Shown here: in pieces, positions 1,207-17,931 of the stretch
How positions within the stretch are numbered: position 1 is the stretch's first letter
Layout of the letters: each line of letters opens with the position of its first letter
Source of the DNA: Deltaproteobacteria bacterium
GTDB taxonomy: Bacteria; Myxococcota_A; UBA796; SXON01
NCBI GenBank assembly: GCA_016875435.1
Contig: VGRE01000010.1
Coordinates: 1 to 34,801 of the forward strand
Reading direction: 5' to 3'
Length of the DNA: 34,801 nt
Notes under the pieces: generated by a model
The model's database searches: none
Seen by the model: only the letters and a program-made list of their open reading frames with translations
What the model was told of the DNA's origin: nothing
Made by a program: the position numbers and the translations under genes

Positions 1207-1240
1207 TCGCCCGTCGCGCCGCGATAGACGCCGACCCACC

Positions 1241-2833
1241 ATGGCCGACTTTCTCGTCATCGGCTCCGGCCTCGCGGGCCTGTCCTTCGCCCTGAAGGCG
1301 GCGCGTCACGGCCACGTCCGCGTGCTCTGCAAGACGACGCGGGCCGAGTCGAACACCGCCTTCGCGCAGGGCGGCATCGCGGCAGTGTGGTCGACCGACG
1401 ACAGCGCCGAGGCCCACGTCAACGACACGCTCGTCGCCGGCGCGGGCCTCTGCCGTCCCGACGCCGTGCAGCAGACGGTGCGGGAAGCGCCTGAACGCGT
1501 GCGCGAGCTCATCGAGCAAGGCGTGCGCTTCTCGCAAACCGACGGCGAGTACAGCCTGCATCGCGAGGGCGGTCACTCGGCGCGGAGGATCCTGCATGCC
1601 GACGACCTCACCGGCGCCGAGCTCGTGCGCGCCTTGCTCGCGGCGGTGGAGGCCGAGCCGAACATCGAGCTGGTCGAGCACCAGCTCGCGGTGGATCTCG
1701 TCACCGAGAACAGCCTCGCGCGTCGTCACGGTCGTGCACCGGTCGAGCCCGACCGGGTGTTCGGCGCCTACGTGCTCGACGTGCCATCGGGCAAGGTGCG
1801 CGTGGAGAGCGCCCGGGTGGTGGCGCTCTGCACCGGTGGCGCCGGGAAAGTCTATCTCTACACCAGCAACCCCGATGTCGCGAGCGGCGACGGCATCGCC
1901 ATGGCCTGGCGAGCGGGCGCGCGCATCGCGAACATGGAGTTCGTCCAGTTCCACCCCACCATCCTCTTCCACCCTCACGCGAAGAGTTTCCTCGTGTCCG
2001 AGGCGCTGCGCGGCGAGGGGGGCGTGCTGCGCCTGTCGAGCGGCGAGGCCTTCATGGGCCGCTACGATCCGCGGAAAGAGCTCGCCCCGCGCGACATCGT
2101 GGCGAGGGCCATCGACGCCGAGTTGAAACGGCGAGGTGACGACTGCGTGTACCTCGACATGACCCACCTCGACCGTTCCACCATCGAGGCCAAGTTCCCC
2201 AACATCGACAAGCGCTGCCGCGAGCTGGGCATCGACATGGCGGTGGCGCCCATCCCGGTGGTGCCGGCTGCCCACTACTTCTGCGGCGGCGTGCAGACCG
2301 ACCTCCACGGCGAGTCGAGCGTACACAACTTGTTTGCCCTCGGCGAGTGCGCCTGCACGGGGCTCCACGGGGCGAATCGGCTCGCCAGCAACTCGCTCCT
2401 GGAGGCGGTGGTGTTCGCCGACCACGCGGCGCGGGTGGCCGTGTCGCGACTGCCGGAGGCCCCGCCACCGGGCGACATCCCCGACTGGGACCCCGGCCGC
2501 GCCGTCGACAGCGACGAGCAGGTGGTCATCACCCAGACCTGGGACGAGATCCGCCGCTTCATGTGGAACTACGTGGGCATCGTCCGCACCAGCAAGCGCC
2601 TCTTCCGCGCGCGTGCCCGCATCGACCTCGTGAAAGACGAGGTCCGCGACTACTACTGGGATTTCAAGCTCACGGCTCCCTTGCTGGAGCTGCGCAACCT
2701 CGCCGACGTGGCCTCGCTGGTGGTGGAGAGCGCGGTGCGAAGGAAAGAGAGTCGCGGGCTGCACTACTCGCTGGACTTCCCGGCTGAGGACCCGCGCTGG
2801 GTGCGCGACACCGTGCTGCGGCGCCGGTGGTGA
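1241..2833 (+). CDS. nadB: L-aspartate oxidase
   Basis: A 530-residue flavoprotein that oxidises L-aspartate to iminoaspartate, the first step of de novo NAD synthesis. The N-terminus has the FAD dinucleotide-binding motif VIGSGLAGLSFAL (residues 5-17), followed by TAFAQGGIAAV, the substrate-region motif HREGGHSARRILHADD, the family signature ANMEFVQFHPT, and FALGECACTGLHGANRLASN with LLEAVVFA near the end of the FAD domain. The C-terminal helical domain contains the usual MWNYVGIVR segment. Length matches NadB, and these signatures favour it over fumarate reductase/succinate dehydrogenase flavoprotein. The ATG at 1241 gives an N-terminus that starts right at the Rossmann strand. nadA and nadC are not in the window. 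Its stop overlaps the start of the next gene. Confidence 0.95.
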   Translation: MADFLVIGSGLAGLSFALKAARHGHVRVLCKTTRAESNTAFAQGGIAAVWSTDDSAEAHVNDTLVAGAGLCRPDAVQQTVREAPERVRELIEQGVRFSQTDGEYSLHREGGHSARRILHADDLTGAELVRALLAAVEAEPNIELVEHQLAVDLVTENSLARRHGRAPVEPDRVFGAYVLDVPSGKVRVESARVVALCTGGAGKVYLYTSNPDVASGDGIAMAWRAGARIANMEFVQFHPTILFHPHAKSFLVSEALRGEGGVLRLSSGEAFMGRYDPRKELAPRDIVARAIDAELKRRGDDCVYLDMTHLDRSTIEAKFPNIDKRCRELGIDMAVAPIPVVPAAHYFCGGVQTDLHGESSVHNLFALGECACTGLHGANRLASNSLLEAVVFADHAARVAVSRLPEAPPPGDIPDWDPGRAVDSDEQVVITQTWDEIRRFMWNYVGIVRTSKRLFRARARIDLVKDEVRDYYWDFKLTAPLLELRNLADVASLVVESAVRRKESRGLHYSLDFPAEDPRWVRDTVLRRRW

Positions 2834-4686
2834 GTCGCTGGCCCTGGCTGCCGTCGGCGGTGGCTGGGCTGGGCTTCGCGCTGTGGTGGCTGGGTGGCGC
2901 CATCGTCGACCCCACGGTGCTCGCCGCGGGATCGGTGTACAGCGAGGCGCCGGGGCACCTGTGGGCGCTGTGGGGCGCGTCGGAGGGCCTCGCGACGCAC
3001 GGCCCCTTCGTGCGCGAGGTGGCGGCGGCGCACCCCCGGGGACTGCGCATGCACATGATGGACGCGGTCAACCTCGCGGTCTTCTGGCCGGCACTCCGAC
3101 TCTGCGGTCCGGTGGTGGCGTGGAACATCTTGCACGCCGTCTGGCCCCTCGTGGGCGCCCTCGGCGTGTACCAGCTCGCTCGGCGCGTGGCGGGGACCGG
3201 TCCCGCGTTGCCCTGGGCCGCGCTCCTGGGCGTGGTGGTCACCCTCGGCAACCCCTTCTTCCTGCTCTACGGCCAGCAAGGTCGCACCGAGTACCTCCCG
3301 GCGTTGCTGTACCCGCTGCACCTCGCCTTGTTGCATCGCTGGCTGCGTCGCGACGAGCATGATGGTGTCGCGAGCGGTCGCCCGCCGACCTGGGTGGGCG
3401 TCGGCGCGGGATTGTCGCTCGGCGCGGTGGCGCTCGGAGGCTGGTACCTCGCCGCTTTCGCCGCGATCCTCGATGTCGCCGTGGGGCTGGCGTGGAGCCG
3501 GGGCGTCCCGGTCGCCGAGCGGGCGATGCGCCTGGCCCTGCCGGGGACCGTGGCGCTGGCTTGCCTTGTCCCGGCCGCGCGGGCGCTGGTGCACCAGGAG
3601 GGCAGCGAGTGGCTGCTGTCGCCGGGCACGTCGACGTCGATGGCATCGCCCGATCCGTTGCTCGCGGCCTTTCGCCTGGCCGACCCGGCGACGACCGGGA
3701 TGATGGACAGCCAGCCCTACCTCGGGGTGCTCGCGCTGGCGCTCGGGGCGCTGGGAGCGTGGTGGACAAGACGCTGGAGCTGGCTCGCGGTCGCGATGCT
3801 GGCCCTGGTGCTGGCGCACGGGACGACGCTGTCGCTCGGTTTCCTCGATGGTGCCTCGCTCCCGGCGGCGTGGCTGGTAGAGCTGTGCCCCCCGCTGGCC
3901 TACGTCCGCACCTGGTCGCGGGTGTTGTCGCTGGGCGCGGCCCTGGCCGGCGGCGCGGCGATGATCGGCGTGGTCGCGCTATGGTCGCGGCTTGGTCGGT
4001 GGGGCGTGTCGGCGATCCTCGTCCTCTCGGCGCTCTGCCTCGTCGACCAGGGCACCTGGCCGGAGCGCGCCACGCCATCGTCGTTCGAGGCTCGCGCCCC
4101 GCGGGCGGCGCACGATGCGCTGGCGACGATGGCGCCGGGCGGCGTGCTCACCCTGCCCATCGATCGCTCGCTCCGGCTGCCCGACGGCCGCGAGGAACAT
4201 GCCCTGTGGCTGGTATGGCAACTCGACCTTGGCCGCCCGGTCTCGGCCTCGTTCATGGGCACCGCCGACAACCTCGCCGGCCTGGCGCTGGTCGAGGCCG
4301 CCGCCGAGGCGCAGGCGGCCTGCGTGGCGAGCCGTCGCGACGCATGCCTGGGGAAGGACCTGCGCGAGGCGTGGACACTGTCGGCGAGCACCAGCACCCT
4401 CGCGCGGGTACGGGCGGAGGCGGCGGCGCTGTGGTCGGCCGGCTACGGCGGGGTGTTGCTCGCCGAGGACCGCGAGGCCGGCGGGGCGTTGCGCGCGTTG
4501 CTGGTGGCGGTGATGGGCGGCCCGCAGTTCGACCGCGAGGGCATCGTCGCGTGGAACCTCCGCGACGTGGCCGGCTGGGCGCGAGAGGCACCCCGGACGG
4601 TGGCGCGAGTGCGCGACGACACCGAGACGGCAACGGTGGCGCTGTCCACGCGTGGCACGCGGAAACCGGGACGCGGTGGGCGGTAG
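2830..4686 (+). CDS. Polytopic membrane protein, GT-C glycosyltransferase-like
   Basis: About 618 residues with roughly ten hydrophobic segments in the first 420 residues and a soluble C-terminal domain of about 190 residues. The layout resembles lipid-linked-sugar (GT-C) glycosyltransferases and YfhO-like proteins: after the first membrane helix there is an acidic loop (VYSEAPGHLWALWG), and later EYLPALLYPLHLALLHRWLRR and the AYVRTWSRVLSLG helix that commonly follows the last periplasmic loop. Its sugar donor and acceptor cannot be told. The GTG start at 2830 overlaps the nadB stop (GTGA), implying co-translation with nadB although no functional link is obvious; GTG at 2827 is an alternative. 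No signal for regulation is visible. Confidence 0.7.
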   Translation: MSRWPWLPSAVAGLGFALWWLGGAIVDPTVLAAGSVYSEAPGHLWALWGASEGLATHGPFVREVAAAHPRGLRMHMMDAVNLAVFWPALRLCGPVVAWNILHAVWPLVGALGVYQLARRVAGTGPALPWAALLGVVVTLGNPFFLLYGQQGRTEYLPALLYPLHLALLHRWLRRDEHDGVASGRPPTWVGVGAGLSLGAVALGGWYLAAFAAILDVAVGLAWSRGVPVAERAMRLALPGTVALACLVPAARALVHQEGSEWLLSPGTSTSMASPDPLLAAFRLADPATTGMMDSQPYLGVLALALGALGAWWTRRWSWLAVAMLALVLAHGTTLSLGFLDGASLPAAWLVELCPPLAYVRTWSRVLSLGAALAGGAAMIGVVALWSRLGRWGVSAILVLSALCLVDQGTWPERATPSSFEARAPRAAHDALATMAPGGVLTLPIDRSLRLPDGREEHALWLVWQLDLGRPVSASFMGTADNLAGLALVEAAAEAQAACVASRRDACLGKDLREAWTLSASTSTLARVRAEAAALWSAGYGGVLLAEDREAGGALRALLVAVMGGPQFDREGIVAWNLRDVAGWAREAPRTVARVRDDTETATVALSTRGTRKPGRGGR

Positions 4687-4704
4687 CGGCTAGGGTCGCA
4701 GGGC

Positions 4705-5280
4705 ATGTGGACGATCTTCCTCGCGGCCTGCGCCGGCTCGCCCGCCCCGGGGAAGGACTCCGCTGCGGATACGGCCGACACCGCGATCGTCGAGGACCTC
4801 CCCTGGACGGAAACCCCCTTCACCGGCGACCCGCGCGCCTGCGCCTGAGGCTGGCTCTTGTGGGACGAGGCCGAGGGCTGGCTCGTGCAAGTCACCTTGC
4901 CGATGACGCGCGACCGGGGGGCCGACGCGATGTACTTCGCGCTGGAGGCGAGCTTTCCTGCCGAGGCGGAGCTGGTGATCGTGGCGGGCAGCTCGATCTG
5001 GGACGACGCCGGGCTCAGCGAGTACTGTAGCTTCGAGACGGAGGACCCCTCCGGCTACACCACGCCGGGCACCTGGTGGTTCGCGACGGCGGGGACGGTG
5101 ACCCTCGATGCCACCTGGGTGGAGACCCGCGACGACAACCTGGGCGACGACTGCGGCACCGACGAGCGATTCAGCTTCGATGTCGCGACCACGGGCGTGA
5201 CCATCGACGGCGGGACGACGCTGCCCGATGGGCGCTGGGCGGGGCTCGACGTGTGGTTCGCCGGGTGCCCGCCCGAGTAG
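4705..5280 (+). CDS. Lipoprotein gene with in-frame TGA (selenocysteine candidate or nonsense-broken)
   Basis: ATG at 4705 starts a lipoprotein: MWTIFLAAC puts the lipobox cysteine at residue 9, followed by a DSAADTADTA linker. After codon 47 comes TGA (4846-4848). The same frame then stays open with the same codon bias for 143 more codons to TAG at 5278, encoding a cysteine-containing domain (GWLLWDEAEGWLVQV...AGCPPE). Reading TGA as one residue gives 191 aa with the context ACA-U-GW, a C-x-U arrangement. A hairpin with a G-containing apical loop lies just downstream (see 4857). Either this is a selenoprotein or a Cys/Trp codon has mutated to stop (or was misread). No other start with an export signal exists for the downstream half. 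No selA/B/C/D gene is in the window. Confidence 0.55.
4857..4891 (+). promoter_or_regulatory. SECIS-like hairpin downstream of in-frame TGA
   Basis: Eight bases after the TGA at 4846-4848 the RNA can fold as CUUG / CGAG / GCC - loop GAG - GGC / CUCG / CAAG, with an asymmetric internal loop (UGGGA against UG) and a UGG bulge. The apical loop starts 24 bases after the UGA and begins with G, within the loose limits known for bacterial SECIS elements. Stems of this size are common in GC-rich DNA, so this is supportive only. Confidence 0.35.
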
Positions 5281-5283
5281 AAT
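5278..5283 (+). promoter_or_regulatory. -10-like TAGAAT six bases before phhA start
   Basis: TAGAAT matches TATAAT at five of six positions and ends exactly six bases before the GTG start of phhA, so transcription would begin at the start codon. No Shine-Dalgarno sequence and no clear -35 are visible. The hexamer includes the TAG stop of the preceding gene. Confidence 0.35.
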
Positions 5284-5289
5284 CGACGC

Positions 5290-6147
5290 GTGAGCCCACC
5301 CCACGTCCACGAGCCTCACGCCGGCGGTGCCGCCGCCCTCGTGATCCTCGACCCCGACCACCCGGGCTTCCGCGACGCGGCCTACCGCGCCCGTCGCGAC
5401 GCGATCGCCGCCATCGCGCTGCGTCACCGGGCGGGCGGACCCGTGGAGGACGCGCCCTACGTGGAGGAAGAGCACGAGGTGTGGCGCACTGTCTGGGGCG
5501 CGCTCGCCCCGCTGCACCAAGAGAGGGTGTGCCGGGAGATCCTGGAGCTCCAGGAGGTGCTGCCGCTCGGCCCGTCTGGGATCCCACAACTCGCGTCCTT
5601 GAACGACCGCTTGTTCGCGTCGAGCGGCTTCCGGATGGAGCCTGTGGCCGGGCTGGTGAGCGCCCGCACCTTCATGCAGCACCTGGGGCGGCAGGTGTTC
5701 CTGTCCACCCAGTACATCCGCCACCACAGCCGCCCCTTCTACACGCCGGAGCCCGACGTGGTGCACGAGCTGGTGGGCCACGCCGCCACCCTCGCCCACC
5801 CCGCGATCGCCGAGCTGAACCGTCTCCTCGGCCTCGCCGCCAGCGAGGCGAACGAGGCCGAGATGAGTCGACTCGACCGCGTGTACTGGTACACGCTGGA
5901 GTTCGGCCTCGTGGCCGAGAACGGCGAGCCCCGGGCCTTCGGCGCGGGCTTGCTCTCGAGCGCGGGCGAGCTCCGCGACTTCGCCACCCACGCCCAGCTC
6001 CGTCCCTGGGATCTCGACATCATGGCGCAGACCCCCTTCGACCCCACGCGCTACCAGGACGTGCTCTTCGTGGCGCCCACGTTCACGCGCTTGCTGGTGG
6101 ACCTGAGCACCTGGGTGCGGACGGGGCGGTGGCGCGGGCGCGGGTGA
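5290..6147 (+). CDS. phhA: Phenylalanine 4-monooxygenase
   Basis: A 285-residue non-haem iron, tetrahydropterin-dependent hydroxylase converting phenylalanine to tyrosine. The iron ligands of the 2-His-1-carboxylate facial triad are visible: H159 and H164 in PDVVHELVGHAATL and E204 in YWYTLEFGLV. Family blocks LNDRLFASSGFRMEPVAGLVS and RHHSRPFYTPEPD are also present. Size fits the bacterial monomeric enzyme, which lacks the eukaryotic ACT regulatory domain. The GTG at 5290 is the only reasonable start; it lies nine bases after the stop of the TGA-interrupted lipoprotein gene and has a -10-like TAGAAT immediately upstream. Usual partners (pterin-4a-carbinolamine dehydratase, tyrosine degradation genes) are not nearby. 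Confidence 0.95.
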   Translation: MSPPHVHEPHAGGAAALVILDPDHPGFRDAAYRARRDAIAAIALRHRAGGPVEDAPYVEEEHEVWRTVWGALAPLHQERVCREILELQEVLPLGPSGIPQLASLNDRLFASSGFRMEPVAGLVSARTFMQHLGRQVFLSTQYIRHHSRPFYTPEPDVVHELVGHAATLAHPAIAELNRLLGLAASEANEAEMSRLDRVYWYTLEFGLVAENGEPRAFGAGLLSSAGELRDFATHAQLRPWDLDIMAQTPFDPTRYQDVLFVAPTFTRLLVDLSTWVRTGRWRGRG

Positions 6148-6159
6148 GTCGCCGTGGCC

Positions 6160-7302
6160 CTACCACCGCTCGCCCGCCGCCCGCCGCGCCTCGAGGATCG
6201 CCACCTGCTCGGCGAGCTCGCTGGCCACGCGGTCGGCGCGGGCATCGGCGAGGGTTTCCTGGAGCAGGAGCACCTCGAGGGTGGAAGCCAGCCCGGCCTG
6301 GAGGCGGAGCTGGCCCACCTTGAGCGACTCGGCGGCGAGCGCCTCGCGGGCGCGGGCGGCCTCGGCCACGTCGTGTGCGGCGCGGGACTGGGCGCGGGCG
6401 CTGTCGATGGCGAGGTCGAGGTCGCGACGGGCGGCGTCGAGCTCGGTCTCGGCGATCTTGACGGCGAGGGCGCTGTTGCGCTCGCGCAGGAAGGGCCCGG
6501 CGAGGCCGTCGAAGGTCCAGGTGGCGCCGATGGTCACGCGCCAGTCCACCGGGTCGAGCGCGGTGGAGGTGGCAAGCGAGCCCGAGGGCAAGAGCCCGGC
6601 GATGTCCTGGCCGTGCTCCCAGCGCGCGGCGGCGAGGCTCTCGCGGGCGGCGTCGAGGTAGGGCGAGGCCAGGCTGTCGCCCGGGAGCAACGCGTCGGCG
6701 GGCTCGGCGAGGGCGCCGAGATCGCTGGCGGGCATCGACAGCGCCCGGGCAAGCTGCAGTCGCGACACCCGCACCAGCGAATCGGCGCTGGCGCGGTCGG
6801 CGCGGGCGAGGAGCGCGGCGGCCTCGGCGGATCGGCCCACCAGCTCGCTGTCGAGCCCCGCCGCCACGCGCGCTTTCACGGCGGCCAGCGTGGCCTGAGC
6901 CACCTCCTCGCCCTGCTGGGCCGCGAGGAGCGCGGCCTCGGCGGAGAGCACCGAGTGGTACAGCACGGCGGCGGCGTACTGGGCGTCGAGCGTGGTGGCC
7001 TCGGCCGAGTGGCGGGCGGAGCGCGCCTGCGCCGACTGCTCGGCGGCATCGAAGTAGGCCTGCGGGTCGAGCGCGCCGGAGCTGAGCGTGAAGTTCGAGG
7101 TGTCGGTGGTGACCCCGCCGAGGCTGGTGGACTGCCAGCCGAGCTGCGCGGTGGCGAGGACGCCCGACCAGCGCTCGGCGGCGTCGAGCTGCGCCTGTTT
7201 CCAGGACAAGGTGGCGACGACCGCGCCGGGATCGACCTCGGCGGCGCGCTGCACCGCCTCGTCGAGGGTGAGCGCGAGCGCCGGGGCGACGACGAGCATC
7301 AT
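6160..7302 (-). CDS. TolC-family outer membrane efflux protein
   Basis: 380 residues. A short signal peptide (MMLVVAPALA) is followed by LTLDEAVQRAAEVDPGA, the typical start of a TolC/OEP domain, then long Ala/Glu/Leu-rich amphipathic helices and a repeated second half ending LLLQETLADARADRVASE. This is the trimeric outer-membrane channel type used by tripartite efflux and type I secretion systems, on the short side for the family (usually above 400). The ATG overlaps the stop of pepP (ATGA, 7299-7302), so it is last in the pyrE-pepP chain. No periplasmic adaptor or inner-membrane pump gene is adjacent, so its partner must be elsewhere. Confidence 0.85.
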   Translation of the reverse strand: MMLVVAPALALTLDEAVQRAAEVDPGAVVATLSWKQAQLDAAERWSGVLATAQLGWQSTSLGGVTTDTSNFTLSSGALDPQAYFDAAEQSAQARSARHSAEATTLDAQYAAAVLYHSVLSAEAALLAAQQGEEVAQATLAAVKARVAAGLDSELVGRSAEAAALLARADRASADSLVRVSRLQLARALSMPASDLGALAEPADALLPGDSLASPYLDAARESLAAARWEHGQDIAGLLPSGSLATSTALDPVDWRVTIGATWTFDGLAGPFLRERNSALAVKIAETELDAARRDLDLAIDSARAQSRAAHDVAEAARAREALAAESLKVGQLRLQAGLASTLEVLLLQETLADARADRVASELAEQVAILEARRAAGERW

Positions 7303-8699
7303 GGCGACAACCTCTCCCGCGCCGAGGGACCGGTGCCCACGAGCGCCTCGATATCGGCGACGGACTTGGGAATGTCGGCGGTGAGCACCTCGGGCGCCTC
7401 GCCCTCCCCGCGCACGCGCACGTCGTCTTCCACGCGGATGCCGCCGAAGCCGAGCCAGGCCTCCGCCGCCGTGAAGTCGACCATGCCCTCGAACTCGGCG
7501 CGAAGCGCCGGGTCGTGGAGGATGGCCGGGACGAAGTAGATACCGGGCTCGATGGTCACCACCACGTCGGCCGGGAGGTCGAGGTCGAGGCGCAAGAAAC
7601 GCGCGCCGAACTGTTTCGGTCGCGACCGGCCCTGGGCATAGGCCGGGCGGTCGCCGAAGTTCTCGAGGTCGTGGACGTCGAGCCCGATGAGGTGACCCAC
7701 GCCGTGCGGGAAGAAGACGCCGGCGGCGCCGCTCTCCACCAGCCCGTCGACGCCGCCCCGGAGGAGCCCGAGATCGCGCAGGCCAGCGGCGAGGTAGCGG
7801 GTGGCCGCCCAGTGGATGTCGGCGTACCGCCGCCCCGCCGTGCACATGGGTATGCAGTGCTCGTTGGCTTCCAGGCAGAGCTGGTACATGTCGCGCTGTC
7901 GCGACGTGAACTTGCCGTTGACAGGCCAGGTTCGAGTCACGTCGCTGGCGTAGCCGCTGGGCGTCTCCGCGCCGCCGTCGAGCAGGAGCAGGTCGCCCTC
8001 GCGCAGCGGGTTCTTGTAGTCGGGGTTGTGGAGGATCTCGCCGCGGACGGTGACGATGGAGTGGTAGGAGGTCGTTGCCCCTTGCGACGCCACCACCGCG
8101 TCGAAGAGGGCGGCGATCTCGCGCTCGTGGCCGCCGGCGCGCGTGGCCCGCATCGCGGCCCGGTGGGCGAGCGAGGCCACCCGCGCCGCCTCGCGCATCT
8201 CGTCGATCTCCCATGCGTCACGACTACGGCGCAGTTGCATCACCGCGTCGACCAGCGCCTCGGCGCCGGGCGAGCCGGTGTAGGCGAGGGCTTTTCCCGT
8301 CAGACCGCTGAGCCGCTGGTTCACCGCGAGGTCGGGCACCGCCAAGGAGACGAGGCGCCCGCGGAGGCCCTCGCAGGCGGCGTCGAGCTCGGCGAGGGCC
8401 TTCACCGCGTGTACGCCGTAGCGCTGCCGTCGCGACTCCAGGCTCTCCACCTCGCCGTGCCAGAGCTCGTCGCCCGGCTCGGGCGGTTGCAGGAACAGCG
8501 TGCACTGGCCGTCGACGACGAGCGCGTAGGCGCCCGGCTCGGCGCAGCCGGTGAAGTAGAGGAAGCTGCTGTCGGCGCGGAAGGGGACCGAGTTCATCGG
8601 CAGGTTGCGCGCGCGGGTGCCGTTGTTGCCGAGCAGGACGGGGGCCCCCACGCGCTCGCAGAGCTGGCGGCGGCGCTGGGCGAAGTCTGGCGCGCTCAT
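7299..8699 (-). CDS. pepP: Xaa-Pro aminopeptidase (M24B)
   Basis: 466 residues that remove N-terminal residues before proline. It has an N-terminal AMP_N domain (about 1-150, with NNGTRARNLPMNSVPFRADS) and a C-terminal pita-bread domain (about 160-450). Dinuclear metal ligands are in place: D241 (LLLLDGGAE), D253 (YASDVTRTW), H336 (PHGVGHLIGLDVHD), E384 (VTIEPGIYF) and E424 (GIRVEDDV). The ATG at 8699 overlaps the TGA of the upstream gene (ATGA), favouring it over an in-frame GTG at 8711. It is cytoplasmic, with no signal peptide. Third gene of the four-gene chain starting at pyrE. Confidence 0.95.
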   Translation of the reverse strand: MSAPDFAQRRRQLCERVGAPVLLGNNGTRARNLPMNSVPFRADSSFLYFTGCAEPGAYALVVDGQCTLFLQPPEPGDELWHGEVESLESRRQRYGVHAVKALAELDAACEGLRGRLVSLAVPDLAVNQRLSGLTGKALAYTGSPGAEALVDAVMQLRRSRDAWEIDEMREAARVASLAHRAAMRATRAGGHEREIAALFDAVVASQGATTSYHSIVTVRGEILHNPDYKNPLREGDLLLLDGGAETPSGYASDVTRTWPVNGKFTSRQRDMYQLCLEANEHCIPMCTAGRRYADIHWAATRYLAAGLRDLGLLRGGVDGLVESGAAGVFFPHGVGHLIGLDVHDLENFGDRPAYAQGRSRPKQFGARFLRLDLDLPADVVVTIEPGIYFVPAILHDPALRAEFEGMVDFTAAEAWLGFGGIRVEDDVRVRGEGEAPEVLTADIPKSVADIEALVGTGPSARERLSP

Positions 8700-9199
8700 G
8701 GCGCCGCCCACCGTAGCTCCGCGCGGCCGCGCGCGCTGGTGAGCAAGAGTCCATCGGGCTCGCGGCCCCCGCAGGCGCCCGGGTCGAGATGGAGAATCAC
8801 GAGCTGGTCCCAGGCGGTGAGGTGGGGGTAAAGCGCCTCGTCGAGCGTCGAGGGCTTCTTGCGCGTGGTGATCTCAATGTCGCGACAGGACGTGCTCCCG
8901 GCCGACACGCGCGCGGTCCAGGGCGTGGTCCCGTCGGTCCCGAAGCGCAGCTCGTCCTTGAACTGGCCCGACACGGCGAGCACGAGGTCGGTGCCTGCCG
9001 CTCCGGCTGCTCCTTGTCCCGTGATGGCGGCGACGTGCTCGGACTGGGTGGCGCGGAGCGCCTCGTCCACCCGGGTGGCCCGGACCAGGAGCGCCGTGTA
9101 CCAGCCGTCGTACACCCGCGCCTCCTCGGTGGCGGCGGCGACGGTGCGCGCGTAGTCGCGGCTCTCGTTGGCGAGGGCGAGGGCGAGCGAGAGGATCAC
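8696..9199 (-). CDS. Predicted exported protein of unknown function
   Basis: 167 residues starting at GTG 9199, which overlaps the pyrE TGA (GTGA). The first residues (ILSLALALANES) form a short hydrophobic stretch that could be a minimal signal peptide. The C-terminal half has a beta-rich pattern (QFKDELRFGTDGTTPWTARVSAG, then HLTAWDQLVILHLDPGACG) with two cysteines. I do not recognise the family. Its position between pyrE and pepP with overlapping starts and stops on both sides implies translational coupling, not necessarily a shared function. Confidence 0.75.
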   Translation of the reverse strand: MILSLALALANESRDYARTVAAATEEARVYDGWYTALLVRATRVDEALRATQSEHVAAITGQGAAGAAGTDLVLAVSGQFKDELRFGTDGTTPWTARVSAGSTSCRDIEITTRKKPSTLDEALYPHLTAWDQLVILHLDPGACGGREPDGLLLTSARGRAELRWAAP

Positions 9200-9735
9200 G
9201 AGGCCTCCAGGTCACGACGGCGCACCAGCGCCTCGAGCACGTAGCCGCGGGCGGCGAGCGCCTCGGCCGCGCCCTCCTCGCGATCCACCACGGTGAAACA
9301 CTGCACCACGCGCAGCCCATCCAGCTGGGCGCGATCGATGGCCTTGAGCAGCGAGCCACCGGTGGTGGTGGTGTCTTCCAGGATGGCCACCGGCGAGCCC
9401 GGCGGCAGGTTGCCGCGCCCCTCGACCCAGACCTGGGTGCCGTGCCCTTTCGGCTCCTTGCGCACGATGAAGGCGTGGATCGGGCGCTGTCGGCACCACG
9501 ACACGGTGGCGACGGCGCTGGCGACGGGGTCGGCGCCCATGGTGAGCCCCCCGGCACCTACCACCTCGGGCGAGAGCCGGTCGCAGATGAGCGAGCCGAT
9601 GATCCAGCTGCCCTCGGCGTGGAGCGTGGTTTGCCGCGCGTCGACGTAGAAATCAGACTCCCGGCCGCTGGCCAGCACCACCTTCATGCGACGGTAGGAC
9701 TTCTCGCGGAGGAGCGCGACGAGGCGATTCTGCAT
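9196..9735 (-). CDS. pyrE: Orotate phosphoribosyltransferase
   Basis: 179 residues. It transfers orotate onto PRPP to make orotidine monophosphate in UMP synthesis. The PRPP-binding loop VAILEDTTTTGGSLL (residues 116-130) is clear, with the flexible-loop block VRKEPKGHG (91-99) and the N-terminal substrate strand FYVDARQTTLHAEG (29-42). It is slightly shorter than the E. coli enzyme and normal for the short bacterial class. It is first in a minus-strand chain with an exported protein, pepP and a TolC-like gene; no other pyr gene is present. Upstream, TAGGCT stands seven bases before the ATG and no Shine-Dalgarno sequence is seen, so the transcript may be leaderless. Confidence 0.95.
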   Translation of the reverse strand: MQNRLVALLREKSYRRMKVVLASGRESDFYVDARQTTLHAEGSWIIGSLICDRLSPEVVGAGGLTMGADPVASAVATVSWCRQRPIHAFIVRKEPKGHGTQVWVEGRGNLPPGSPVAILEDTTTTGGSLLKAIDRAQLDGLRVVQCFTVVDREEGAAEALAARGYVLEALVRRRDLEAS

Positions 9736-9773
9736 CGCCGCCAGCCTACCCCGACGGCGCAGCGCGGGGCAGC

Positions 9774-9779
9774 TATGAT
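9774..9779 (+). promoter_or_regulatory. -10-like TATGAT six bases before a lipoprotein start
   Basis: TATGAT (five of six matches to TATAAT) ends six bases before the ATG at 9786. The expected transcription start is the A of the ATG, and there is no Shine-Dalgarno sequence. The -35 region is GC-rich with no recognisable TTGACA. Confidence 0.4.
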
Positions 9780-9785
9780 GCGCCG

Positions 9786-10784
9786 ATGCTCGTACTCGTC
9801 GCCTGTCGCACCGTCACCGAGGTGGTCACGAGCGCGCCCGACTCCGCGGTCGACACCGGCGCCATCGACGACGGCGACTCGGCGGTAGACAGCGGTGGCG
9901 ACTCCGGGGTCGTCGACAGCGGCGACAGCGGGAGCGGCGGCCCCGGCCCCGTGGAGTGGCCCGAGGCCGGCCCGGCCTGCGAGAGCTGGGGCGAGGCCGA
10001 GCAGACGGGCACCGTGGTCGACGTGGAGCTCGAGGAGATCTCCGGCCTCGTGGTGTCGTTCCAGAACCCCGGCGTGCTCTGGGTGCTCGAAGACCACGGC
10101 AACCCGGCGGACATCGTGGCGATCGACCCAGCGGGCAACACGATCGCCACGCTCACGCTGGAGGTCGAGGAGAACGTGGACTGGGAGGAGCTGATCCTCG
10201 CGCCCTGCGGGACCTCGGCCTGCCTGGTGGTGGTCGACGCGGGCGACAACTCGGGTGCGCGCGACGCCCTCGCCCTGCTCGTCGTGGAGGAGCCCGTGCT
10301 CGACGGGGTGACGACGGAACTCACGGCGTTGCCCGACGCCTACGGCTTCACCTACCCCGAGGCCCCCGAGAACTGCGAGGCGGCGGCGATGGCGCCCGAC
10401 GGCCGCTTCTTCCTCTACACCAAGCGCCCCGACAACACCGCCGGGGTGTACGTGCTGCCGGCCTACGAGGACGCCGCCGTGGCCTCGGTGGTGGGCGACA
10501 TCCCGACCGGTCCCGAGGAAGATCCCGGCCCGCAGAACGCGGCCACCGGCGCGTCGTTCTGGCCCGACGGCTCGCGGCTTCTCCTACGCACCTACACGGG
10601 GTCACTCGAGTACCTCTTGCCCGGCGGCCCGGAGAAGCTCGACGCCGTCAGCTTCACGCCCCTGCCCACGCCGCCGATCGACCACATCGAGACCATCGCC
10701 TACGACGTGGTCAACCGCGGCTACTGGACGATCCCCGAGGCGATGGAGGGCGCGCCGATCTTCTGGGTGCCTTGCCTCGATTAA
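9786..10784 (+). CDS. Lipoprotein with Asp/Ser/Gly linker and beta-propeller-like domain
   Basis: 332 residues. The signal is unusually short: MLVLVAC places the lipobox cysteine at residue 7, and no ATG, GTG or TTG exists in frame in the preceding 60 bases, so a longer signal is excluded. A 40-residue linker rich in Asp, Ser, Gly and Val follows (DSAVDTGAIDDGDSAVDSGG). The rest has repeating beta-propeller-like blades: GVLWVLEDHGNPADIVAID, CEAAAMAPDGRFFLYTKR, ASFWPDGSRLLLRTYTG, HIETIAYDVVNRGYWTI. The role is unknown; proteins of this shape are often surface-anchored binding or esterase-like propellers. It is transcribed alone, divergent from pyrE. Confidence 0.8.
   Translation: MLVLVACRTVTEVVTSAPDSAVDTGAIDDGDSAVDSGGDSGVVDSGDSGSGGPGPVEWPEAGPACESWGEAEQTGTVVDVELEEISGLVVSFQNPGVLWVLEDHGNPADIVAIDPAGNTIATLTLEVEENVDWEELILAPCGTSACLVVVDAGDNSGARDALALLVVEEPVLDGVTTELTALPDAYGFTYPEAPENCEAAAMAPDGRFFLYTKRPDNTAGVYVLPAYEDAAVASVVGDIPTGPEEDPGPQNAATGASFWPDGSRLLLRTYTGSLEYLLPGGPEKLDAVSFTPLPTPPIDHIETIAYDVVNRGYWTIPEAMEGAPIFWVPCLD

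Positions 10785-16404: not shown

Positions 16405-17931
<1,527 letters not shown>

Follow-up and report, generated by a model that had tools for sequence, protein, structure and literature searches.

The 34,801 nucleotides analysed here (the window; contig VGRE01000010.1 of a deltaproteobacterial genome) contain a lipoprotein-like reading frame with an in-frame TGA, and the question is whether this codon is read as selenocysteine (Sec), as an earlier note on this DNA had proposed, or acts as a stop. The features of the locus are collected in Table 1.

Layout and coding quality of the interrupted frame

The frame 4705-5280 reads MWTIFLAAC(lipobox)...DPRACA-U48-GWLLWDEAEGW...AGCPPE*, with 47 codons on the 5' side of the TGA, 143 codons on the 3' side and a TAG end. 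By inspection, MWTIFLAAC has the lipobox Cys of a lipoprotein signal of the short type that is frequent in the lineage; other lipoproteins of the genome start with the same kind of signal (MMLLLVAC, VIGLLLAC, MWLLLLAC).

Table 1. Features of the interrupted lipoprotein frame and its surroundings
Feature	Position	Strand	Remarks
Start codon ATG with a very short lipoprotein signal, MWTIFLAAC	4705-4731	+	lipobox Cys9; by inspection
Linker, D/T/A/P rich	4732-4845	+	ends ...DPRACA; Cys46 is two residues ahead of the TGA
In-frame TGA, codon 48	4846-4848	+	stop or selenocysteine; identical in G010 (VGRQ01000159.1)
In-frame codons after the TGA (143)	4849-5277	+	beta-rich exported-type domain; Cys108, 150, 188; without family match
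Minimum-energy hairpin	4849-4883	+	12 bp, bulged U, loop GGACGAGG
TTG, possible translation restart	4858-4860	+	GAGG (4847-4850) 7 nt upstream
Hairpin of the earlier note	4869-4883	+	stem GGCC/GGCT, loop GAGGGCT (4873-4879) at +24; weak, -3.8 kcal/mol
Following gene, for a biopterin-dependent aromatic amino-acid hydroxylase	5290-6147	+	

A three-periodic Markov model, with the genome itself as training set, supplied the coding scores, and the background and paralogue scans were run on a 2.2-Mb sample, roughly half of the genome. The frame scores 0.48 bits/codon before the TGA and 0.47 after it, the top value of the six frames on either side, and is therefore coding on both sides. It ranks first among the TGA-bridged frames without a nearby ATG or GTG in the sample, and over its first 15 codons past the TGA it reaches 0.72, the best in the sampled genome. 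In neither copy of the gene, i.e. in this genome and in the related genome G010, do the 143 codons after the TGA carry a further lesion. An in-frame UGA within a coding region, as called for in a selenoprotein gene, is present at 4705-5280. The earlier description of a lipoprotein signal and linker followed by well-biased codons is thus borne out, and so is the C-A-U-G site on read-through, which contains a C-x-U motif (Cys46, U48). TGA is also a normal stop codon in this genome, since it terminates 265 of 619 long well-scored frames.

Selenocysteine decoding and the hairpins after the TGA

Judged by its gene content, the organism is a Sec decoder. The genome encodes a tRNA-Sec (selC, 61.8 bits; called tRNA-SeC by ARAGORN), SelB (302 bits) and SelD, the gene of which itself has a Sec-UGA that is kept in all 11 genus genomes; SelA is represented by a C-terminal fragment only, cut by a contig end, and is complete in 8 of the 11 genus genomes. 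The search for selA, selB, selC and selD that the earlier note had proposed has accordingly found the set, with selA as a fragment.

A scan of the genome for interrupted frames found at least two further genes for selenoproteins that belong to known families, a peroxiredoxin and a UshA-like protein, and both families are included in published selenoprotein lists (PMC13188914, PMC2398784). The PrxQ/BCP-type peroxiredoxin gene (L037, contig C1, minus strand; frame 9722-10309) has its TGA at 10051, at the peroxidatic position of PxxxTxxU, together with the lipoprotein signal MMLLLVAC and a strong SECIS stem, and its product is a well-supported candidate for a lipidated selenoprotein. The UshA-like PCGU protein (L069, contig C27, minus strand; TGA at 17647) has a C-terminal multihaem cytochrome part and scores 246 bits against NF041198, for which the curated cut-off is 275. 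A UshA-like gene with one TGA occurs in at least 42 of the 63 genomes of the order with a uniform GGUCU-loop SECIS, and by inspection 20 of 20 fetched copies start with a short hydrophobic stretch that closes with [AG]-C, in the manner of a lipoprotein signal (L069; L165-L184 in relatives). Because the peroxiredoxin and the UshA-like lipoproteins carry a Sec-UGA, Sec on putative lipoproteins is already habitual in the lineage, and a lipidated selenoprotein would not be the novelty that the earlier note expected. In the literature, we found no description of Sec on lipidated surface proteins in this order, nor of lipidation of the listed families.

The candidate shares with the UshA-like gene (NF041198, PCGU) the genome, an in-frame UGA soon after a lipobox signal and linker, and C-x-U; the latter gene differs in its spread over at least 42 of the 63 genomes of the order, in its clear GGUCU SECIS at +18 and in its UshA-like domain with multihaem part, and there is no sequence relation between the two. 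The Sec peroxiredoxin (PF00578) of the same genome likewise has a Sec-UGA domain behind a lipoprotein signal, but it belongs to a recognisable family and has an 8-bp SECIS stem. SelD (UGCK), the Sec-UGA gene used as SECIS yardstick, differs from the candidate as an enzyme of Sec synthesis with a genus-wide conserved TGA.

The bacterial SECIS model comprises a loop of 3-9 nt, a stem of 4-16 bp, a G in the first two loop positions, a distance of 16-37 nt from the UGA and a minimum free energy of <= -7.5 (PMC13188914). The elements of the organism itself are CUGGGUCC-GGC-GGACCUGG for SelD (-11.0 kcal/mol, loop at +17), GGUUGCGG-GUA-CCGCGACC for the peroxiredoxin (GUA/GGUAC loop, -13.3 kcal/mol, loop at +17) and a GGUCU-loop hairpin for UshA (-9.9 kcal/mol), i.e. 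a strong stem with a G-leading loop 16-18 nt after the UGA. No element of this type follows the TGA at 4846-4848; the position scores -3.2, which is equalled by 46% of random TGAs. The candidate gene fits the loose bSECIS constraints, its best hairpin within a wide window reaching -14.2. The genome is GC-rich, however, and a bSECIS-like hairpin of <= -7.5 kcal/mol accompanies 63% of its arbitrary TGAs, while 24% of them equal the candidate's best. The stem of the minimum-energy hairpin abuts the UGA, and its loop, 14 nt after the UGA, falls outside the published spacing. The G-leading loop 24 bases after the UGA on which the earlier note relied does exist and agrees with the loose pattern, but its stem is weak and within chance by the same background. 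Synonymous-codon shuffles of the hairpin region gave no codon bias towards folding, and both copies are identical there, which leaves no covariation. We regard the predicted hairpin as no evidence for Sec and as mildly against it.

Relatives and divergence of the gene

No homologue beyond the G010 copy was found among 71 genomes of the class and 379 sampled from the phylum, and the same search returned no Cys or Sec form at codon 48; the alignment for a Cys or Trp homologue at this position, proposed in the earlier note, therefore consists of the candidate and one copy that also has TGA. A paralogue is absent from the 2.2 Mb of the genome that were searched, and the read-through protein gave no usable match to Pfam, NCBIfam or PDB sequences. 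A match in another genome (G053, E 2e-4) was spurious, as it lies antisense to a glycosyltransferase-like frame. Structure prediction of the read-through protein yielded a mean pLDDT of 38 with two sequences and of 48 with one, too poor for a fold search. Nearly all known selenoproteins possess Cys homologues (PMC13188914).

The G010 copy, in a separately binned deltaproteobacterial metagenome-assembled genome, is 98% identical and has the same TGA; over the stretches compared, identity between the two genomes is about 97%. An error in a single assembly, another alternative of the earlier note, is unlikely because a closely related second genome has the identical TGA. The two copies differ by five changes (two synonymous, three nonsynonymous) and lie in a low-divergence tract with a mosaic pattern: dS between the two genomes is about 0.015 in the tract that holds the lipoprotein gene vs 0.12-0.19 in two upstream genes. 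A decay test (dN/dS after the TGA) is uninformative, since the two copies sit in a recently shared tract with few changes; the TGA can be young for the same reason, and the two copies are not strong evidence for its long conservation. Between window positions 1217-8806 and a sister genome (L024), divergence is several percent upstream and drops abruptly to almost zero at 5.7-8.4 kb; mosaic divergence of this kind between sister genomes suggests a recombination tract.

The hydroxylase gene that adjoins the lipoprotein gene is present in 3 of 21 relatives searched (this genome, G010 and G012) and is, like the lipoprotein gene, confined to few genomes of the genus or family.

Another interrupted frame of the genome, for a Cys-rich lipoprotein (L081, contig C39, plus strand), has a TGA at 5551-5553 after ECV, where the sister genome G008 (L186) has TGT (Cys). 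Omega is 0.15 after this TGA, yet the copy with TGA has no terminal stop, and no SECIS-like hairpin was found in it. This TGA is probably a lesion; from the TGT in G008 and the lost stop, broken lipoprotein genes therefore probably occur in the genome.

Readings of the TGA at codon 48

The best explanation, which we hold tentatively, is a lineage-specific lipoprotein gene broken by a TGA that acts as an ordinary stop; a change of a Cys or another codon to a stop, the main alternative of the earlier note, stays in contention. The gene would code for an outer-surface lipoprotein known only from this genome and one close relative, and its reading would formerly have continued past codon 48; a nonsense change may have occurred in a recent common ancestor, or may have spread via recombination. 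The present product would be a 47-residue lipidated stub, with the remainder untranslated or poorly translated, and the TGA would be a lesion and not a Sec codon. Consistent with this are the lack of a hairpin of the kind used for the organism's own SelD, peroxiredoxin and UshA, the lack of a Cys or Sec relative at codon 48 in the class and phylum sample, unlike nearly all selenoproteins, the room for a young TGA in the low-divergence tract, and the second lipoprotein frame with TGA vs TGT and a lost stop; the same facts are accounted for without special decoding. An ordinary stop sits less well with 143 codons free of further lesions in both copies, with the exceptional coding score directly after the TGA, with the Cys two residues away that yields a redox-like C-x-U, with an organism that decodes Sec and employs it in other lipoproteins, and with a TGA that persists across two genomes about 97% identical.

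An ordinary stop is slightly likelier than the selenoprotein, which is a possible reading that we do not prefer. SelB and tRNA-Sec would here decode UGA-48 to give an exported, lipid-anchored protein of 191 residues, with a Cys46-x-Sec48 redox pair opening the mature beta-domain. This would agree with the full Sec trait, with the two other Sec-UGA lipoproteins as company, with the top coding score on each side of a TGA shared by a second genome, with C-x-U and the loose bSECIS constraints, and with an exported-looking domain that requires the signal located before the TGA. It is opposed by the missing SECIS of the lineage type, by a codon choice not skewed towards folding, by the failure to find Cys or Sec homologues and by the odd number of non-lipid Cys/Sec positions. 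Of the earlier proposal, Sec decoding, the shared TGA, coding on both sides and C-x-U stand, and a specific SECIS and a Sec/Cys homologue do not. What this reading would amount to, an orphan lipid-anchored C-x-U selenoprotein whose SECIS is non-canonical and differs from the others of the genome, in a lineage with surface Sec in several unrelated lipoproteins, appears rather doubtful. Two cistrons, i.e. a 47-residue lipoprotein stub that ends at the TGA and a 140-residue protein made from TTG 4858 by coupled re-initiation, are improbable. The SD-like GAGG is well spaced for this TTG, in a genome where an SD-like motif stands ahead of only 9% of all TTGs vs 27% of likely ATG starts, and in-frame gene junctions are frequent; but the upstream product would be a lipoprotein of signal and linker alone, the downstream part looks exported yet would have no signal, and the other in-frame junctions have a long gene as the upstream frame. 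A sequencing or assembly error, or a TGA read genome-wide as an ordinary amino acid, is very improbable: the genomes are metagenome-assembled, but a separately binned genome, about 3% different, has the identical TGA, and the many long frames ended by TGA speak against reassignment. These weightings are judgements and not computed probabilities.

If Sec is inserted at codon 48, the gene would represent a selenoprotein family that lacks Cys homologues and is for this reason invisible to the usual searches for Cys/Sec pairs, and SelB would be shown to accept a different hairpin. Aside from the candidate, the genes for the UshA-like protein and the peroxiredoxin, which are better supported, indicate that the order carries Sec on putatively lipidated surface proteins.
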